Positions 9,623 to 26,968 of a stretch of DNA of 27,393 nucleotides are shown here, one piece after another. Origin of the DNA: a virus; IMG/VR virus record IMGVR_UViG_3300030389_000517, positions 1 to 27,393 of that record; one strand, written 5' to 3'. The translations under genes and the position numbers were made by a program. A model generated the notes under the pieces. It saw nothing but the letters and a program-made list of their open reading frames with translations. It was not told the DNA's origin and searched no databases. How positions within the stretch are numbered: position 1 is the first letter of the stretch; every line of letters begins with the position of its first letter.

Positions 9623-10207
9623 TTATGTAGTTGTTGCAGTTAATGTACTAGAGTTAGTCGTTAAAGTACCTGCATAAAGTCTAGGTAATTCATACTGTCT
9701 AGCCATTAAGTTTACTGTTATTGCATTTTCATCAGAGAAAGCAGCTCCAGTACCACCTTCCATACCAGATAAATTTAAAAACGTCTGATTTTTTTCTATT
9801 ACATCTTGATTTCTATATTTTTCACTTGCTCCAACAACAATCTTATTACCTGCTGTATCAACAACTATTGCCATCATACACTGATCTAATAATCCTTGTA
9901 GTGCCTTAAATTTGCTTGATGTCATGTTTGGTAACATGAATGATAATGCACACTCAAAAGATGTTGAACCATTTTCTTTAGAAGCTGTGATAGTCAATGA
10001 AGGCATCTCTTGCTTAAATTCAAACAGTTTCCAGTCGTCTGCATCTGCACCACCAGATTTTTTTATAGCTGAAATTTCATGTTTACCTGCTCCATTATCA
10101 AAAGCTACAGTATCACCATCTGCAAATGCTCTTATGCAGATTTGTTGAATACCACCTGCTACTTGTAAGTCAGTACATGTAATCCCAATTCCGTTATCTA
10201 TTGCCAT
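9623..10207 (-). CDS. Putative tail tube protein
   Basis: A 194-residue beta-rich protein located after the capsid gene. It begins MAIDNGIGITCTDLQVAGG, then IQQICIRAFADGDTVAF, KLFEFKQEMPSLTITASKEN, TSFECALSFMLPNM, a helix SSKFKALQGLLDQCMMAIVV, and GNKIVVGASEKYRN with a closing AITVNLMARQYELPRLY. A two-sheet fold with one helix and a late strand is the general plan of tail tube proteins and of related tail-terminator and Hcp-like folds. It is expected to assemble into stacked hexamer rings around the tape measure. A head-side protein of similar fold is the alternative. The tape measure gene is 3 kb away upstream, which is not the usual neighbour. Confidence 0.5.
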   Translation of the reverse strand: MAIDNGIGITCTDLQVAGGIQQICIRAFADGDTVAFDNGAGKHEISAIKKSGGADADDWKLFEFKQEMPSLTITASKENGSTSFECALSFMLPNMTSSKFKALQGLLDQCMMAIVVDTAGNKIVVGASEKYRNQDVIEKNQTFLNLSGMEGGTGAAFSDENAITVNLMARQYELPRLYAGTLTTNSSTLTATTT

Positions 10208-10235
10208 TTTATTTTATTTTATTAGTTATTAAATA

Positions 10236-10256
10236 AGAGGGGGATAAACCCCCTCT
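10236..10256 (-). terminator. Strong GC-rich hairpin after the capsid gene
   Basis: AGAGGGGG (10236-10243) and CCCCCTCT (10249-10256) form a perfect 8-bp stem with a 5-base loop, in an otherwise very AT-rich genome. It lies 10 bases after the stop of the capsid gene. On the minus strand the sequence after the stem is TATTTAATAACTAAT, a poor T-run, so it may be a partial terminator or may protect the 3' end of the capsid transcript to raise its level. Confidence 0.6.
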
Positions 10257-10266
10257 ATTGTTAATT

Positions 10267-11274
10267 TTAGTAGAAGATTCCCCATTGTACAAGTGAAGGG
10301 TACAAGAATTGTACACCTAACTTGAAGTAACCTCTAAAGAACATTTTTTCTTCTAAATCATCATAGAATACTTTAAATGATCCTTCTGGATCTGTTACAT
10401 CTGAACCTATTATTAAGTTATCTACTGCAGAGTAACATGCTCCTTCTGTTCCGTTTACACCACCTCTTAGGAATAAAGCAGGATCAGTATCAGCTAAGAT
10501 AGTATCCCATTCGTACATAGGAACTAATTCCACGCCGCGAAACTTAACAACTAATACACCATCTTGTTGATTAGTGATTGCTAAGTCTGCAGAAGTACCT
10601 TCTAAGTTCTGTAAGTAAGCATTGTAAGTTTTTGGAGTTACATATATCTTCTTATCTGCTGCAGGTACTTGTTGTAAAGCTGCAGGAGCAGAATCATACA
10701 TATTTCTGATTAATGATAAAGCCTCTGCTGCTGTTGGAGCAGTTGGTGCTACCGCACTAAATTCAGTTCTAGCTGCTAATACAGTTGCGTCATCTCCCAT
10801 TAATTTCATCCATCCTGATAATTGATTGTAATCTGAAGTTGCACCATCACCACCCCAAGCTAATCTTACTATGTCTTGACCAATACCTTTAACTGCTCTG
10901 TCAACAATAGCGTCAGCTAATTGTGTTCCTTCTAAATTCATTACATCAACACCACTTCTATACATCTCTTCGATGTAAGTGTCAAAGAACTCATTAGTAC
11001 ATTGCTCAAGAGCAACTCTCATTCTTCCTGCTGTTATTGTTTTTTCGTCAATATCAAATTGTTTTGAACCACTTGTTGCTGAACAATTTGTGTAAGTCTG
11101 TACTATTTTAGTCAAAGCCTTTGAAGTAAATACGTTCATTTTGTGTTTTACATTAGGTAAAACTCTATAATTACGCATAATATCATCACTTCTAAATACT
11201 GGCTCATAAAATATTTCGTTTAGATTCGCCCCAGAATATGTTGCGAATGTTCCTTTATTTGCTACGTTTGCCAT
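10267..11274 (-). CDS. Major capsid protein
   Basis: A 335-residue protein located just after the protease/scaffold gene. Features are an N-terminal arm (MANVANKGTFATYSGANLN), EPVFRSDDIMRNYRVLPNVKHK, a helical spine with LEQCTNEFFDTYIEEMYRSG and GIGQDIVRLAWGGD, then an Ala-rich region and IYVTPKTYNAYLQNLEG. The second half includes GVLVVKFRGVELVPMYEWD and the ending FFRGYFKLGVQFLYPSLVQWG. The strand order of the last part (ELVPM ... FFRGYFKLGVQ) resembles the P-domain close of HK97-fold capsids. The length, the protease gene directly upstream and the hairpin after the stop support this. It shows none of the N-terminal scaffolding region seen in some HK97-like capsids, in line with a separate scaffold in the upstream gene. 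Confidence 0.75.
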   Translation of the reverse strand: MANVANKGTFATYSGANLNEIFYEPVFRSDDIMRNYRVLPNVKHKMNVFTSKALTKIVQTYTNCSATSGSKQFDIDEKTITAGRMRVALEQCTNEFFDTYIEEMYRSGVDVMNLEGTQLADAIVDRAVKGIGQDIVRLAWGGDGATSDYNQLSGWMKLMGDDATVLAARTEFSAVAPTAPTAAEALSLIRNMYDSAPAALQQVPAADKKIYVTPKTYNAYLQNLEGTSADLAITNQQDGVLVVKFRGVELVPMYEWDTILADTDPALFLRGGVNGTEGACYSAVDNLIIGSDVTDPEGSFKVFYDDLEEKMFFRGYFKLGVQFLYPSLVQWGIFY

Positions 11275-13208: not shown

Positions 13209-16200
13209 TTAAATAGTTGCATTAGATTGTATAACATTTACAACGTTTTGTGTTTCTGTTATATCTGATTCTACAACAACAACTTTATTTATACTACCTC
13301 CTTGATTTCTACTTAGAGCATTAAACTGTGATTGAGTAAATGTTGTAGAGTTTAGTAAACCACCATCTGCAAACTTGACACCTCCTCCTGCAGCGTTCAT
13401 AGCAGATAATTGATCCCTAAACATTGCTGTACTTCTTTTATTTATAACAGCCTCACCTCCTTCTAACTCTACCACTCTACCACCTACAGCAAACTTTTCA
13501 CCACCAAAAGCATGTGCTTTACCATGTACCATGCCACCATTGCCAAACTCTTCTATCATACCTCCTTTGGCCATAGGTGAACTTGTTAACGCTTTCATGT
13601 TTTGTCTTATAGAAATTAACAATGCTAATGTTTTAGCTACTGCTATAATATTTGCAGGAAAAACTAAAGAAGAAGCTTTAGAAAGTGCTTTGAATTGTTC
13701 CGACAAAGCCTCTGAATTATTTGCTATTGTTGCTGCTGCAGATATTTTGATACCTGCTTCTCTTACACCTTGTAATTTTTCATCTTCTCCTGCCAATGTT
13801 ACTAATTGATCACCAATACCTTTTAATTGATCTAGTTCTTCTGTTCTAGCACCTTTCACGTCTTTTATACCTTTTAATTTTAAATCAATTAATTGTTGCT
13901 CTAGTTGCATCATCAATTCATGACTTTCCATTGTCATAAATTCTCTATCTTCAATCTCATCTAAAGCAGCTTGTGTATTTTCTATTTGTTTTTTTCTTAA
14001 TTCTTCTTCTGCATCAATTTGAGTTATAGTACCTGCTAATATTTGTTTGTCTATATCTAATTTATCTAAAGCATTATCGTAAGCTAAATTATCTTTTATA
14101 CCTGTTAAAAATTCTTTTTCTAATTTAGCCATTTCTTTTTCAAGATCTGACATCTCTTTTGTTAATCTAAATGTCTTGTCACCTATTTGAAAACTTTTTT
14201 CTGCCTCTTTATTTAAACGCACTCTTTGTTTTACAAGTGCTTCTATCAAAGCACTTTCTGCTCTTGCTATAGCCACTGGATCTGCTGCCTCAGATGTTTT
14301 AAGAATATTAACCATGTTTCGTAAATGTTTAATTTCTTCTGCTTCCAACTTTAAATTATGCTCTCTTGTACTATCTAATTCATCAATAAATCTTTGTTTT
14401 AAATCTTGTTTACTTTCTAAATTTCTAATTTTTTCATTATCAACTCTTGTTTTTAAAAGCTCTTGTTGTTCAGTCAATATCATTTGATCTCCTGTAGCTA
14501 TGTTGGTAAGGATTTGATCACCCAAGTCTTCAACAGAAATTTCTGTATCTTCTATAAGTAATTTTAAAGTTTTTATTTGATCAAGAATACCTTTACCTTC
14601 AAATTGAGCATTACCCATAAGTTGATCTCTTCTTCTTCTAAAACTTTCTACTGCATCAGAACCACCACTTAAAATTTGACCTCCCTCAGTAATTTGTGTA
14701 GGATCTTCTTCTCTAGCCATTTTTAAAAACTTAGCCATACCTCTTCTAAGGTCTTCTTCTTTCTTCAAAAGTTTTTCTAAGTCTGCTTTGTGTTTGACCA
14801 TGTCTTCATTGACAGTCTTGTTTATTTGATCTTCAATCTCTTTATTTATACTTGCGACCTCTTCTAAAGACTTTGGTTGCTTTCCTAAAAGTCGGTTAGT
14901 AACCCTCATTGTATTGTTAAATCTTTCTTGAGCAGCAGATATACCATCAAATGCTTTTACTGTCTTCGAAGCCTCATCATTAACTCCCATCAAAGAAGTC
15001 ACAAGTTCTGTTATAGCAACAACTAAAATACCAATACCAGTAGCAATAAAAGCAGCTTTGATTGCTATGCCTAATGTTCTAAAACCTACCTTTGCTACGT
15101 CTGTTCCTGCCCTTAATTTGCCTAAATTTTTTGTAAAATTTTTAGCCATTTTTGCGCCCCCAACAAACAACATATTACCAGTGTTTACAACAAGATTAAA
15201 CGCTTTGTAAGCCAATGTTACTTTTAATACTGTTGCAATGAAACGACCTACAATTTTTATTTGCTGTGCTACTTTTGAGGCGTTATCTGTTAACTTGTTT
15301 ATCATCTCTGTAAGACCTTGTGTGCTTTCTTTAAGACCAGTACCTACAAGTTCTTCAAATAAAGCAATAGATAAACCTTCTATAGCAGACAGTAATTCAA
15401 AAATAGAACCTTGTAAAGTGTCTTTCATCATGTCAGACATCTCTTGTGTTGTTCCTATAGCATCATCAAATTTGTCGTTAAGTCTTTCTACTTTTTCTGC
15501 CCCTACAGCCATTACATTAAGAGCAGCAACCTGCCTTATGTTAACTAATCCTCTTCTTACTTCTGGTGTCATTTGATTTAACATGCCTAATGCTTTGTGT
15601 AAATCACCAGAATTTTTGACTGTAAATCCTAATGCTTGTGACAATTTAGATGTAGGATCACCTAATTGTAAAAATATATTTCTTAAAGATGTACCTGCTA
15701 TAGATGCTTCTATACCTGCATCTGTCAATGTACCCATTATAGCTGTAGTTGTTTCTAATGGTATATTCATACCTGCGGCAATAGGCCCTACTTTCGACAT
15801 AGAGGTTTGGAATTTTTCTAAATCTAATGCAGAAGACGCAAAAGATAAATTCATAATATCAACTACTCTAGCAGTATCACTTGCATCTAAATTAAAACTT
15901 CGTACTGCTGCTCCTGCCACCTCTGCTGCTCTACCTAGATCGACACCTGTTACTGTTGCTAAACCTAACGTTGCCTCTTGTGCTGCTAAAATTTCTCTTG
16001 TAGTAAAACCTAACTTACTAAAATTAGTTTGTAACTCTGCCACTTGATTTGCAGTAAAGAATGTTGTTCTACCAAGTTCTAAGGCAGTCCTTTTTAATTT
16101 GTTAAATTCATCATTATTAGCACCAGATATTGCTCTTACTCTAGCCATTTGAAACTCAAAGTCTTTGAATCCTTTGATTGCATTACTAACCGCTTTATTG

Positions 16201-16349
16201 ACTAATCCAAACGCTGCAGTAGCCGCCCCAATAGTAGCTGCTAATTTTAAAAAACTTTTAGAGTTACCTTTAGTCTGCTTGTCTAAACTTTTTAACTGTC
16301 CTTCTCCTTGTACTACGACCTGTACTATTACCTTTTCTGTATTTGCCAT
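13209..16349 (-). CDS. Tail tape measure protein
   Basis: A 1046-residue protein, the longest here. Residues about 30-270 match the TP901-type core of tape measure proteins: FEFQMARVRAISGANNDEFN, LKRTALELGRTTFFTANQVA, LSFASSALDLEKFQ, VGPIAAGMNIPLETTTA and SIAGTSLRNIFLQLGD. A hydrophobic stretch near 425-455 (AAFIATGIGILVVAITELV) is a typical membrane-insertion candidate. Long coiled coils occupy about 480-830. The C-terminus is glycine-rich with repeats of the GGM/AVGG kind (MAKGGMIEEFGNGGMVHGKA, EGGEAVINKRS). It sets tail length and helps DNA entry; at the usual 1.5 angstroms per residue the tail would be about 155 nm. Upstream is the gp10-like gene, downstream small genes and the head block. 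Confidence 0.9.
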   Translation of the reverse strand: MANTEKVIVQVVVQGEGQLKSLDKQTKGNSKSFLKLAATIGAATAAFGLVNKAVSNAIKGFKDFEFQMARVRAISGANNDEFNKLKRTALELGRTTFFTANQVAELQTNFSKLGFTTREILAAQEATLGLATVTGVDLGRAAEVAGAAVRSFNLDASDTARVVDIMNLSFASSALDLEKFQTSMSKVGPIAAGMNIPLETTTAIMGTLTDAGIEASIAGTSLRNIFLQLGDPTSKLSQALGFTVKNSGDLHKALGMLNQMTPEVRRGLVNIRQVAALNVMAVGAEKVERLNDKFDDAIGTTQEMSDMMKDTLQGSIFELLSAIEGLSIALFEELVGTGLKESTQGLTEMINKLTDNASKVAQQIKIVGRFIATVLKVTLAYKAFNLVVNTGNMLFVGGAKMAKNFTKNLGKLRAGTDVAKVGFRTLGIAIKAAFIATGIGILVVAITELVTSLMGVNDEASKTVKAFDGISAAQERFNNTMRVTNRLLGKQPKSLEEVASINKEIEDQINKTVNEDMVKHKADLEKLLKKEEDLRRGMAKFLKMAREEDPTQITEGGQILSGGSDAVESFRRRRDQLMGNAQFEGKGILDQIKTLKLLIEDTEISVEDLGDQILTNIATGDQMILTEQQELLKTRVDNEKIRNLESKQDLKQRFIDELDSTREHNLKLEAEEIKHLRNMVNILKTSEAADPVAIARAESALIEALVKQRVRLNKEAEKSFQIGDKTFRLTKEMSDLEKEMAKLEKEFLTGIKDNLAYDNALDKLDIDKQILAGTITQIDAEEELRKKQIENTQAALDEIEDREFMTMESHELMMQLEQQLIDLKLKGIKDVKGARTEELDQLKGIGDQLVTLAGEDEKLQGVREAGIKISAAATIANNSEALSEQFKALSKASSLVFPANIIAVAKTLALLISIRQNMKALTSSPMAKGGMIEEFGNGGMVHGKAHAFGGEKFAVGGRVVELEGGEAVINKRSTAMFRDQLSAMNAAGGGVKFADGGLLNSTTFTQSQFNALSRNQGGSINKVVVVESDITETQNVVNVIQSNATI

Positions 16350-22541: not shown

Positions 22542-23684
22542 TTAATATATTTTAAATTTTTTGTTTAAGTAATCTTTTATATCTGATTTTTCGTTTTCTG
22601 TTAATGCTCTATTAAAAACAATAAGTTCTCCTAAATCTACAGGACTAAATTGTGTACCATCACCACCTATATTATAAGGCACTGCATCATATGTAAATCC
22701 TGTCCAACTGGCATCACTAGAAACAGCGTTTGCTCCACCATTTAAAGATGTTGTCAAAGTACCAGTGCTACCACTTACACTCAGACTTGTGCATATTAGC
22801 CCATAAGAACTTGAATCCTGACTATTTAGAAAAAGAGTATCTGCATTATTTTTTACCTCTGAATAAAATTTATTATCTTTAAATCCTACAATAATTTTTA
22901 AATTTTCTGATCTACTGTAATCATAAACAATCTGTGTATCTGTGTTTGCAACAGTTTGTTTGGCTACCATAAAAATTGTGTAACTATTAGATGATATAGG
23001 GTTATTTGCAGTTGATGTTAGTATGTCATCTGTACCATCAAAACTTATAAACGCTTTTTCGTTAGGCCCATCAAATCCATGTCGTAAAGGCTGTTTACCA
23101 CTGGTTGCTTGTGAAACAGAAGCAGCACTTGCCGCACTGCTTGTCCAACTACTTACTTTTTTTGTTGCTATGTCAAATGTTACGTTACTGTCTGCTCTAT
23201 ACCATAAAACCAAATCAGAGAAGTCTGTTGGATAATTAGATACAGGTCTGAAACATTTTGTAAAAGCACTGATTGTAAAAGTAAACTTTACATGAACTAA
23301 ACGATCATTACCTACCTCTTTTACTCTTACTATTTCTATACTTTCATCATCTAAGTAAGCTGTTACTGTATCATCTTGAAAATGTTTTAATGTCAAGTCC
23401 AACCACTCGTTACCTAGATCTTGCAAGTTATCCCATCTTTTTTGTAGTAAGACTGCAGATTGTGCAGCTTGTGTGTAAAGATTATAAAAATTTATTTCAA
23501 AAGTATATAGTTCTCTACCATCAAATATTTCTGGTATTGTTGATTCTGGCGGCTCTATAAGAAGTAAAGGATATTTTACATCATGATCTTGATTCAACTC
23601 TGCCTCATATCCAAATTTTACATCTCCATACGTCCACTTATCTTCAAATACTTGTATTATGTCTGTTAATCTTGTTATTGCCAT
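22542..23684 (-). CDS. Tail-terminator-like domain fused to a LamG-like domain
   Basis: A 380-residue two-part protein. Residues 1-145 look like a small tail-completion or tail-terminator domain (TDIIQVFEDKWTYGDVKFGY, KYPLLLIEPPES, ELYTFEINFYNLY, NEWLDLTLKHFQDD and VHVKFTFTISAFT). Residues about 157-378 look like a concanavalin-A/LamG jelly roll: DLVLWYRADSNVTFD at 157-171, FISFDGTDDILT at 212-223, YTIFMVAKQ at 235-243, and a typical ending IVFNRALTENEKSDIKDYLN. LamG-type domains bind sugars or proteins and are common on phage surface proteins. The gene begins with TAATG coupling to the frameshifted gene. The fusion is unusual; see findings. Confidence 0.6.
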   Translation of the reverse strand: MAITRLTDIIQVFEDKWTYGDVKFGYEAELNQDHDVKYPLLLIEPPESTIPEIFDGRELYTFEINFYNLYTQAAQSAVLLQKRWDNLQDLGNEWLDLTLKHFQDDTVTAYLDDESIEIVRVKEVGNDRLVHVKFTFTISAFTKCFRPVSNYPTDFSDLVLWYRADSNVTFDIATKKVSSWTSSAASAASVSQATSGKQPLRHGFDGPNEKAFISFDGTDDILTSTANNPISSNSYTIFMVAKQTVANTDTQIVYDYSRSENLKIIVGFKDNKFYSEVKNNADTLFLNSQDSSSYGLICTSLSVSGSTGTLTTSLNGGANAVSSDASWTGFTYDAVPYNIGGDGTQFSPVDLGELIVFNRALTENEKSDIKDYLNKKFKIY

Positions 23685-24013
23685 TATTTCAAAGGTATAT
23701 TGTTTTTATTGTGTATTTCATCATGTACAGCATTTTCAAAATCATTTTTTGCACTGTTCCAACTTAGATAAGTCAAGACTTTATATAAGTTTGTTCTTTT
23801 TACACTTTCTACTTCGTTATATCCATCCATTTTAAATATTTTTTTTTCTGCTACCATGTACAAGCTATTAAGCCATCCGTAAGGCTTTATGAACTTGTTG
23901 TAGTGCTTTCTTGTAGGAACTCTTCCTTTGCCGCTTGTAGTCCTTCCTTGTCCTTCCCCAAGAACGTTCGGAAAGTCTTTGCTAAGTTTACGCTTTGCAA
24001 AGTCAAAAAAAAA
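23684..24013 (-). CDS. Frameshift (-1) extension of the tail-assembly-chaperone-like protein
   Basis: This frame has no ATG near its beginning; its first possible start is a TTG at 24025, so it is best read as the second half of a -1 frameshift product. From the slippery site it continues FDFAKRKLSKDFPNVLG and ends with NAVHDEIHNKNNIPLK, 107 residues in total, with basic N-terminal and helical C-terminal parts (KPYGWLNSLYMVAEKKIFKM). Joined to the first 188 residues of the upstream frame it gives a protein of about 295 residues. Long frameshift products of this kind are the usual form of tail assembly chaperones. The stop TAA overlaps the next ATG. Confidence 0.7.
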   Translation of the reverse strand, partial: FFFDFAKRKLSKDFPNVLGEGQGRTTSGKGRVPTRKHYNKFIKPYGWLNSLYMVAEKKIFKMDGYNEVESVKRTNLYKVLTYLSWNSAKNDFENAVHDEIHNKNNIPLK

Positions 24014-24570
24014 GCGAACTCCCAAACGATGTCCATTGTTAAATTTTTAAATTTTTCTGTTTTGTCTGGTATGGCTTCATCTGAATATACTTCTCCTTCT
24101 TCTCTACATAATATTGCCATTTGTTCTGGCAATACGTCATACCTTCCATGCTTCATCATTTTAATTGTTGTTTCTAAATGTGTTGATTCTATATAGTCAC
24201 CAAAAGTGTTTCTCTTTAAAAACTCTGATGGAAACTTGTAAGTTGCTCCATCTAATTCAAAATCTGTTATACCTTTAGGCTCATACTTTTTTAATGTTTT
24301 ATAAAAAGTGCTAATAGCTGCAGTAACACTATCTAAATCAAGTCTTTCCATCTTTTTTTTACTGATGCCTGTAAGATATATAAATAAATCTCTGTTAAGT
24401 TTTAAATTATTTACTGCATTATCTGATTGATCAACTTTTAGTTGCCCATCTTCATCTTTATCTGCATACTTATTTATTATATTATATATACCATACCAAA
24501 AACTTAGCTTCATGTCTTTCCATTCTGTAGGTATATCATAATTTTTATTTTCTATTTTTATTGTCAACAT
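23887..24570 (-). CDS. Tail-assembly-chaperone-like protein, unshifted form
   Basis: A 227-residue protein beginning MLTIKIENKNYDIPTEWKDM. It is mixed beta at the start, then helical (KLNRDLFIYLTGISKKKMER, TAAISTFYKTLKKYEP), with FELDGATYKFPSEFLKRNTF near 105-122 and AILCREEGEVYSDEAIPDKT later. The last 39 residues, from L189 on, follow the slippery run. In siphophages the gene before the tape measure is often a pair of this kind, in which most ribosomes end here and a minority shift frame. Here the pair is near the tail genes but several kilobases from the tape measure. No sequence motif names the family; the frameshift layout and place in the tail block give the assignment. Confidence 0.55.
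   Translation of the reverse strand: MLTIKIENKNYDIPTEWKDMKLSFWYGIYNIINKYADKDEDGQLKVDQSDNAVNNLKLNRDLFIYLTGISKKKMERLDLDSVTAAISTFYKTLKKYEPKGITDFELDGATYKFPSEFLKRNTFGDYIESTHLETTIKMMKHGRYDVLPEQMAILCREEGEVYSDEAIPDKTEKFKNLTMDIVWEFAFFLTLQSVNLAKTFRTFLGKDKEGLQAAKEEFLQESTTTSS
23977..24013 (-). promoter_or_regulatory. Programmed -1 frameshift site with nine-T run
   Basis: On the minus strand, nine T (24013-24005) lie in codons GCT TTT TTT TTG of the upstream frame. The heptamer T TTT TTT (24013-24007) lets both tRNAs re-pair after slipping back one base, moving into the downstream frame. A possible stem, CTTTGC (24002-23997) with GCAAAG (23982-23977) and a 14-base loop, begins 4 bases after the heptamer. 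The overlap of the two frames is 127 bases beyond the heptamer's start, allowing the shift. Confidence 0.7.
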
Positions 24571-24575
24571 ATTTT

Positions 24576-25016
24576 TTAGTTTTGATTAATTTCTTTGTTG
24601 GGTAAATCTTTTATCAATTCTTTTTTTTCATTCTCATCTATCAAGACATCTGCCAGTTCACTTGTTGTATCTTCGCAACTCATGACTATTCTTTCAAGAC
24701 TTTCTCTCATTATACTTTTGTTATTATTATTTTTTAGGGCAGTCAAAAAACCAATAGCAGTATAAAAAGCCATGTTTGGTATCAAAAACAAAAATTCTGC
24801 TAAATATGCATCATTTTCTTTTTTTTCTACCATGTTTGTATAAAAATTGTTAGAATACATGTAAATAGTTTGTAATATGTCAGAAAACTCTTGAAATTTA
24901 CCAAAACCACAATCTTCTGTAGCATAATACACTAATTTTTTTAAATTTCGTATATGTTTCTCTACAATCAGCCTATGCTCGTCATTTAAGTATAAAACTT
25001 CGTCTTTTTCTATCAT
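24576..25016 (-). CDS. Hypothetical helical protein of the tail region
   Basis: A 146-residue, mostly helical protein: KDEVLYLNDEHRLIVEKHIR, NLKKLVYYATEDCGFGKF, LQTIYMYSNNFYTNMVEKKE and a hydrophobic stretch near 92-112 (AEFLFLIPNMAFYTAIGFLT), which might be a buried helix or one membrane pass. The second half is acidic (RIVMSCEDTTSELADVLIDE). It lies between terminase and the frameshifted gene, separated from the terminase by a 91-base gap. Many tail-gene clusters contain a small helical gene of this kind. I do not recognise the family. Confidence 0.5.
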   Translation of the reverse strand: MIEKDEVLYLNDEHRLIVEKHIRNLKKLVYYATEDCGFGKFQEFSDILQTIYMYSNNFYTNMVEKKENDAYLAEFLFLIPNMAFYTAIGFLTALKNNNNKSIMRESLERIVMSCEDTTSELADVLIDENEKKELIKDLPNKEINQN

Positions 25017-26556: not shown

Positions 26557-26968
26557 CTATTTCTGTGTAATCAATATCTTCTGCCTCTTCAAGACCTCTA
26601 ATTTGTTTTTTGATATCATCAAGTGTTGCTCCCTCATTTAAATTTATCTCAATCTTTGTGTCCGTATCTTTTTTGATTTCTGTTGATTGCAGTTTTGGTA
26701 TAGCATAGTTCATTAGTTTTGCTATAGCATCTATGTATGCTCTAGGATCTTCATCAAATAAAATGTCCAGTGCCATCTTAATCTTTACTGGCTGCCCTTC
26801 CAAAGCGTATGCCAATGACTTTCTTGTCATCTTTGCTACTTGCCTTACTTCATTATTTTTTGGCTGTAGTGCCTTTGGTGTTTTATTGTAATTCTGATCT
26901 ATCTTGCCAAGCTGAGGTCTTTTTTTCCTAGCCTCTTCCCCTAACTTTTTTTTTGGTTTATGTTCCAT
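26546..26968 (-). CDS. Putative terminase small subunit
   Basis: A 140-residue basic-then-acidic protein from the ATG at 26968 (a TTG at 26983 is in frame and would add five residues). It begins MEHKPKKKLGEEARKKRPQ, then VRQVAKMTRKSLAYALEGQP, KIKMALDILFDEDPRAYIDA and the stretch AIAKLMNYAIPKLQSTEIKK. That DP-x-Y, helix and PKL pattern is one I recall from small terminase subunits of Bacteroidetes phages. The end is acidic (LEEAEDIDYTEIDDE) and probably disordered. Its position directly before the large subunit, with an 11-base overlap, supports the assignment. The fold itself cannot be confirmed here. Confidence 0.65.
   Translation of the reverse strand: MEHKPKKKLGEEARKKRPQLGKIDQNYNKTPKALQPKNNEVRQVAKMTRKSLAYALEGQPVKIKMALDILFDEDPRAYIDAIAKLMNYAIPKLQSTEIKKDTDTKIEINLNEGATLDDIKKQIRGLEEAEDIDYTEIDDE

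Follow-up and report, generated by a model that had tools for sequence, protein, structure and literature searches.

A probable programmed frame transition on a conserved run of nine T in a candidate tail-assembly chaperone gene

Two overlapping frames in a virus genome raise the question of whether they represent one gene with two products and, if so, how the frames are joined. The window analysed here spans the whole of an IMG/VR virus record (27,393 bases; GC content 31%). On its minus strand, frame A (23887..24570) encodes a 227-aa unshifted product and is overlapped in the -1 frame by frame B (23684..24025), which comprises 113 aa when counted from a TTG at 24025, its earliest usable start. 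The functional part of B begins at 24007, within a run of nine T (T9, 24005..24013) that contains the in-frame heptamer T TTT TTT (24013-24007). Located just 5' of the run is GGAGTTCGC (24014..24022), part of a conserved TGGGAGTTC(AG/GC) element. The junction codons are GCT TTT TTT TTG ACT in A and TTT TTT TTT GAC TTT in the -1 frame, and a -1 shift on the run would generate a fused A-B coding region (23684..24570) of exactly 295 aa with the peptide ...WEFAFF-FDFAKRKLSK... across the junction. The original prediction had described these overlapping minus-strand frames, a second frame with only a TTG and no early ATG, and products of 295 and 227 residues; recomputation reproduced all of this, the coordinates to the base. 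Only one other T9 is present on the coding strand of the entire window (3922-3914), located outside or between the listed coding-strand ORFs. Runs of nine A were also observed on the coding strand, one within the B frame (23839-23847, AEKKIF) and one in the 5' portion of the ORF that putatively encodes the small terminase (26946-26954). The first of these is unlikely to be conserved, given that aligned relatives mostly carry Gly in place of one Lys.

The run and the -1 relation are conserved throughout the relatives of this gene. Protein searches of viral contigs yielded 243 loci, some from contigs fetched more than once, representing 96 distinct 70-base contexts. A set of 49 representatives with more than 10% DNA difference covers fused proteins down to 31% identity. 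No direct relatives were found in annotated phages by tblastn and blastn, and none among genome contigs. Frame B is in the -1 frame in 243 of 243 loci and the run is T9 in 241; one further contig begins inside the junction, and in the single T10 locus a substitution just upstream of the run leaves the frame relation unaltered. The in-frame T TTT TTT is present in all loci having the site. No frame-fusing indel was detected in the 242 scored loci, an absence that is notable because one extra T in a slippage-prone run would suffice to fuse the frames. At the junction, conservation passes from A into the B frame and not into the tail of A: A is conserved as far as the run, the 39 codons that follow it in A show little conservation, and B matches among relatives from its first residues onward. 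The universal T9 and -1 relation combined with the lack of fusing indels indicate that the split results neither from chance nor from assembly error and that it is itself under selection. These comparisons make a conserved programmed frame transition at this gene very likely. The original prediction had placed a -1 shift at the T run and had turned on conservation of run and second frame in related phages; it is strongly supported by both and by the joined domains of the Duneviridae homologues described below. The opposite pattern, an interrupted T run combined with an ATG, was not found among the relatives. Some of them do carry an ATG instead of the TTG ahead of B, yet T9 is kept.

Homologues in the Duneviridae indicate that the fused A-B product is a real protein. 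In laban6-1 (gp17), Ingeline_1 (gp5) and FPSV-D35, the homologue is a single unbroken ORF of 293-301 aa covering both domains, and it is this continuity that argues for the fused product. A single-frame homologue is found in ten viral contigs, at least one of which is laban6-1 itself, and profile-profile comparison with the unbroken Duneviridae proteins spans the junction (E 2.3e-9, probability 96%). The Duneviridae family (phrog_25418) is homologous to A-B over both domains, similar in length and likewise encoded upstream of tail genes, but consists of one ORF without a nine-base T run. This family without known function probably has a role in tail assembly. Judging by annotation, the Duneviridae possess just the long form, and the short form is thus not a universal requirement.

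A more distant counterpart is found in Nonlabens phage P12024S, in which gp38, located directly after TerL, and gp39 (23136-23830) are annotated as separate hypothetical genes. A T9 is present in ATA CTT TTT TTT TAT, and the -1 frame carries on as a B-like domain. The T9 is kept in an 87% relative. The pair thus resembles A/B in being split at its own T9, with B in the -1 frame, and in adjoining TerL, but the similarity is remote (profile comparison E 2e-4, probability 45%), the run lies in another codon register and the upstream GGGAG is lacking. Homology of gp38/gp39 to A/B is likely rather than proven. A Foldseek search with a model of A (mean pLDDT 73) returned many uncharacterised phage proteins, including ones from Flavobacterium phage 6H and P12024S. 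Compared with the single ORF of FPSV-D35, gp10 of 6H (10044-10927) has its frame disrupted by a 2-base difference in length together with a short patch of divergence; the break leaves the B domain unannotated and is possibly a sequencing error. Separately, a run of ten A (GAG TCA AAA AAA AAA GAT TAA) is found at the end of gp56 of Cellulophaga phage phi17:1 (15741-16453), a gene located two short genes upstream of the tape-measure gene; a -1 move at this run gives access to about 100 more codons and would represent a probable unannotated tail chaperone frame transition on a homopolymer.

The T run and its upstream flank appear to be constrained at the nucleotide level. Synonymous-codon excess identity has its whole-gene maximum at the run (window centres at residues 185-193), against near-saturated synonymous sites elsewhere in the gene (mean excess 0.086). 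In codon counts that ignore phylogeny, the Glu upstream of the run is GAG in 48 of the 49 representatives compared with a background of 29%, and the Phe that follows it is TTC in 47 of 49 compared with 16%. The codon ahead of the run ends in T in every representative. Within the run, TTT is used for all three Phe codons against a background of 84%, with no exception at the last wobble T (49 of 49). TGGGAG is conserved 5 nt upstream of the run. Wobble choices fixed against codon usage point to nucleotide-level constraint rather than to the peptide alone, and we regard TGGGAGTTC(AG/GC)T9 as conserved on these sequence comparisons. Strong synonymous conservation is also observed at the Thr codon of residue 178 (24037-24039), eight codons before the run, which is ACA in 39 of 49 representatives against a 58% background; the conserved element may start further 5' than GGGAG. 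The overlapping frames stay open for at least 22 codons. The A tail is open slightly longer than predicted by synonymous shuffling of B (mean p 0.27 across 49 non-independent sequences), a weak sign of selection on the A tail itself.

Taken as a whole, the locus is best explained as one gene that yields two products via T9 and encodes a probable tail-assembly chaperone, an account we hold to be reasonably probable and in which we infer the shifting, its level and rate, and the chaperone role. Normal reading through U9 would produce the 227-aa protein A, while a -1 frame move on T9 in a fraction of events would produce the 295-aa A-B. Two routes could lead to this outcome: two tRNAPhe could slip on U UUU UUU, or RNA polymerase could add one U and thereby create a U10 mRNA. 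If the split is kept by selection, as proposed above, both products or their ratio would matter. The site has features of both routes, containing an in-frame heptamer of the X XXY YYZ type typical of ribosomal sites as well as a run of nine T where one extra base joins the frames, as in mxiE-type slippage. We consider the two routes to be near even, with polymerase slippage a serious candidate, and lean slightly towards a substantial contribution of the polymerase, due to the fixed ninth T and to the recurrence of T9 in P12024S in another register. No papers on U UUU UUU in phages were found in the literature collection searched.

A purely ribosomal -1 shift at U UUU UUU (or U UUU UUG), with GGGAG acting as an internal SD-like stimulator as in dnaX, is an alternative to which we give somewhat less than even weight. 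The in-frame heptamer present in all loci and the conserved TGGGAG at a spacing of 5 nt speak for this route, as GGGAG resembles a ribosomal stimulator and could act as one provided that it is readable by the host ribosome. The run, however, extends two T beyond the heptamer, with a last wobble T that is fixed where background usage is 84%, though the ninth T could be explained by the second (TTG) heptamer or by the A frame. Downstream stem-loops or pseudoknots and upstream SD-like stimulators are common, not obligatory, at ribosomal -1 sites. The downstream stem of the original prediction does exist in the window as a low-energy structure (-20.1 kcal/mol, z -3.2), but its role as a stimulator finds no counterpart in relatives: the mean folding z over 49 representatives is -0.18 and RNAalifold detected 0 consensus pairs of a common nested structure downstream of the run in 17 relatives. 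The window stem is hence not a general stimulator, and the missing conserved structure speaks against the ribosomal route. An upstream GGAC/GTTC hairpin pairing was judged by eye to be too weak. In E. coli, U_UUU_UUU ranks among the weaker ribosomal sites, below A_AAA_AAG (PMC5009743). Terminase and fold relatives suggest that the host is probably a member of the Bacteroidota/Bacteroidia. Bacteroidia ribosomes sequester the anti-SD and do not carry out SD pairing (PMC9976891), and F. johnsoniae shifts poorly at the SD-dependent prfB site (PMC12421855), both of which would, in such a host, argue against an SD-like stimulator. GGGAG is also absent in P12024S.

Slippage by RNA polymerase only, with one U inserted at T9 and ribosomes reading the message without slipping, is possible and in our view rather doubtful as the sole route. 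The precedent is Shigella mxiE, and in many bacterial genomes selection against slippage becomes evident once a run reaches nine T (PMC1088944). The U run of Shigella flexneri mxiE similarly joins overlapping ORFs by a one-base gain to yield a longer product, but mxiE encodes a bacterial regulator for which slippage was measured, whereas the present phage gene is known from sequence. Polymerase slippage would also account for an identical run length in P12024S despite the different codon register and would suit hosts unlikely to use SD stimulators (PMC9976891). On the other hand, the heptamer is present as well and some ribosomal slipping is to be expected, and the upstream element is conserved. 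To our knowledge, elements of this kind are not established contributors to transcriptional slippage.

The layout of the gene and a weak structural match indicate that it probably serves as a tail-assembly chaperone. In a use of the lambda G/GT kind, A would coat the tape-measure protein, and tube subunits would be recruited through the B domain of A-B. As in lambda G/GT, overlapping frames are combined with a -1 shift close to where the first frame ends, which gives a short product and one that is extended at the C-terminus; here about 188 residues are shared and the B domain adds about 107. In contrast to lambda, where the shift site is GGGAAAG, the universal site found here is the nine-base homopolymer T9, no sequence relation is recognisable and A/B is located about 7 kb from the tape-measure gene (13209-16349), with five genes of at least 168 aa in between. 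A/B is therefore not directly upstream of the tape-measure gene. Such adjacency is typical of G/GT chaperones, not strictly defining. The original suggestion of a tail-assembly-chaperone layout consequently stands as far as the arrangement of frames is concerned, but lacks the neighbouring tape-measure gene and a family match. Searches of Pfam and PHROGs with A and B found no tail-assembly chaperone family and nothing informative, comparison of A with PDB folds gave just meaningless matches (Z about 3), and the fold search with B returned two unnamed viral proteins and no informative named match. Among the Foldseek matches of A, one weak match (E 0.03) is to a protein named tail assembly chaperone.

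These observations could also be reconciled with a real frame transition in a different protein of neck or tail assembly that is needed in two lengths, an alternative we rate as less likely than not. It would be in keeping with the distance from the tape-measure gene and the missing family hit, with the position of A/B, which just one small gene separates from the terminase genes, and with the single form in Duneviridae. It is weakened by the size of the products, the position of the shift near the 3' end of A and its -1 direction, all of which match G/GT, by the named Foldseek match and by the fact that no alternative chaperone candidate was seen upstream of the tape-measure gene. The gene order TerS-TerL-146-A/B-380-610 is conserved among relatives. 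The upstream neighbour is a 146-aa gene of unassigned function (24576..25016, minus strand), and downstream lies a 380-aa gene (22542..23684, minus strand) with a weak match to phrog_10356 (virion structural). This match covers the C-terminal residues 156-379 while the N-terminal part looks like a separate domain, and the gene could possibly represent a fusion. BLASTP found no homology between the 380-aa protein and the 152-aa Duneviridae or 140-aa P12024S neighbour. The stop codon of B (23684..23686) shares one base with the ATG of the 380-aa gene (TAATG), and an ATG is found within six bases of the B stop in 49 of 49 representatives, some of these possibly internal to B. As shifted ribosomes would end beside the next start, the shift may also feed translation of the following gene.

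An origin of B as a separate protein, made without any shift from an internal NTG start overlapping the Val-Trp codons, is highly improbable, and we rejected it as the main route. An NTG (TTG, ATG or GTG) does precede the run in 48 of 49 representatives with the -1 frame open there, but it is forced by the Val/Ile-Trp codons, and ATG, which arises via GTA, occurs in 10 of 49, below the 43% background use of GTA. The motif is also not A-rich as preferred by Bacteroidia starts (PMC9976891), and internal initiation would leave unexplained both the invariant T9 and the joining of A and B in one ORF in Duneviridae. A sequencing or assembly artefact or a decaying gene, with a true run of T10 and a single ORF, can practically be dismissed: homopolymers are error prone and Duneviridae have one ORF, but T9 recurs across many metagenomes as well as in two cultured phages, P12024S and P12024L, the overlapping frames are kept open and the site is constrained.

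The two-product reading via T9 has consequences for annotation and for the biology of these phages. In automatic annotation, the B domain is overlooked or the gene is divided in two. The 96 distinct contexts and the cultured phage pair represent natural replicates of a frame transition that has become fixed on a homopolymer of nine T, in phages whose hosts are probably without SD pairing. It is unlikely, though conceivable, that this large marine phage clade sets the ratio of the two forms by polymerase slippage on the invariant T9, together with the conserved upstream element, and not by ribosomal frameshifting, perhaps because host ribosomes cannot use Shine-Dalgarno stimulators. The system would allow a direct test of whether phages move from ribosomal to transcriptional slippage where the usual stimulator is unavailable to the ribosome.
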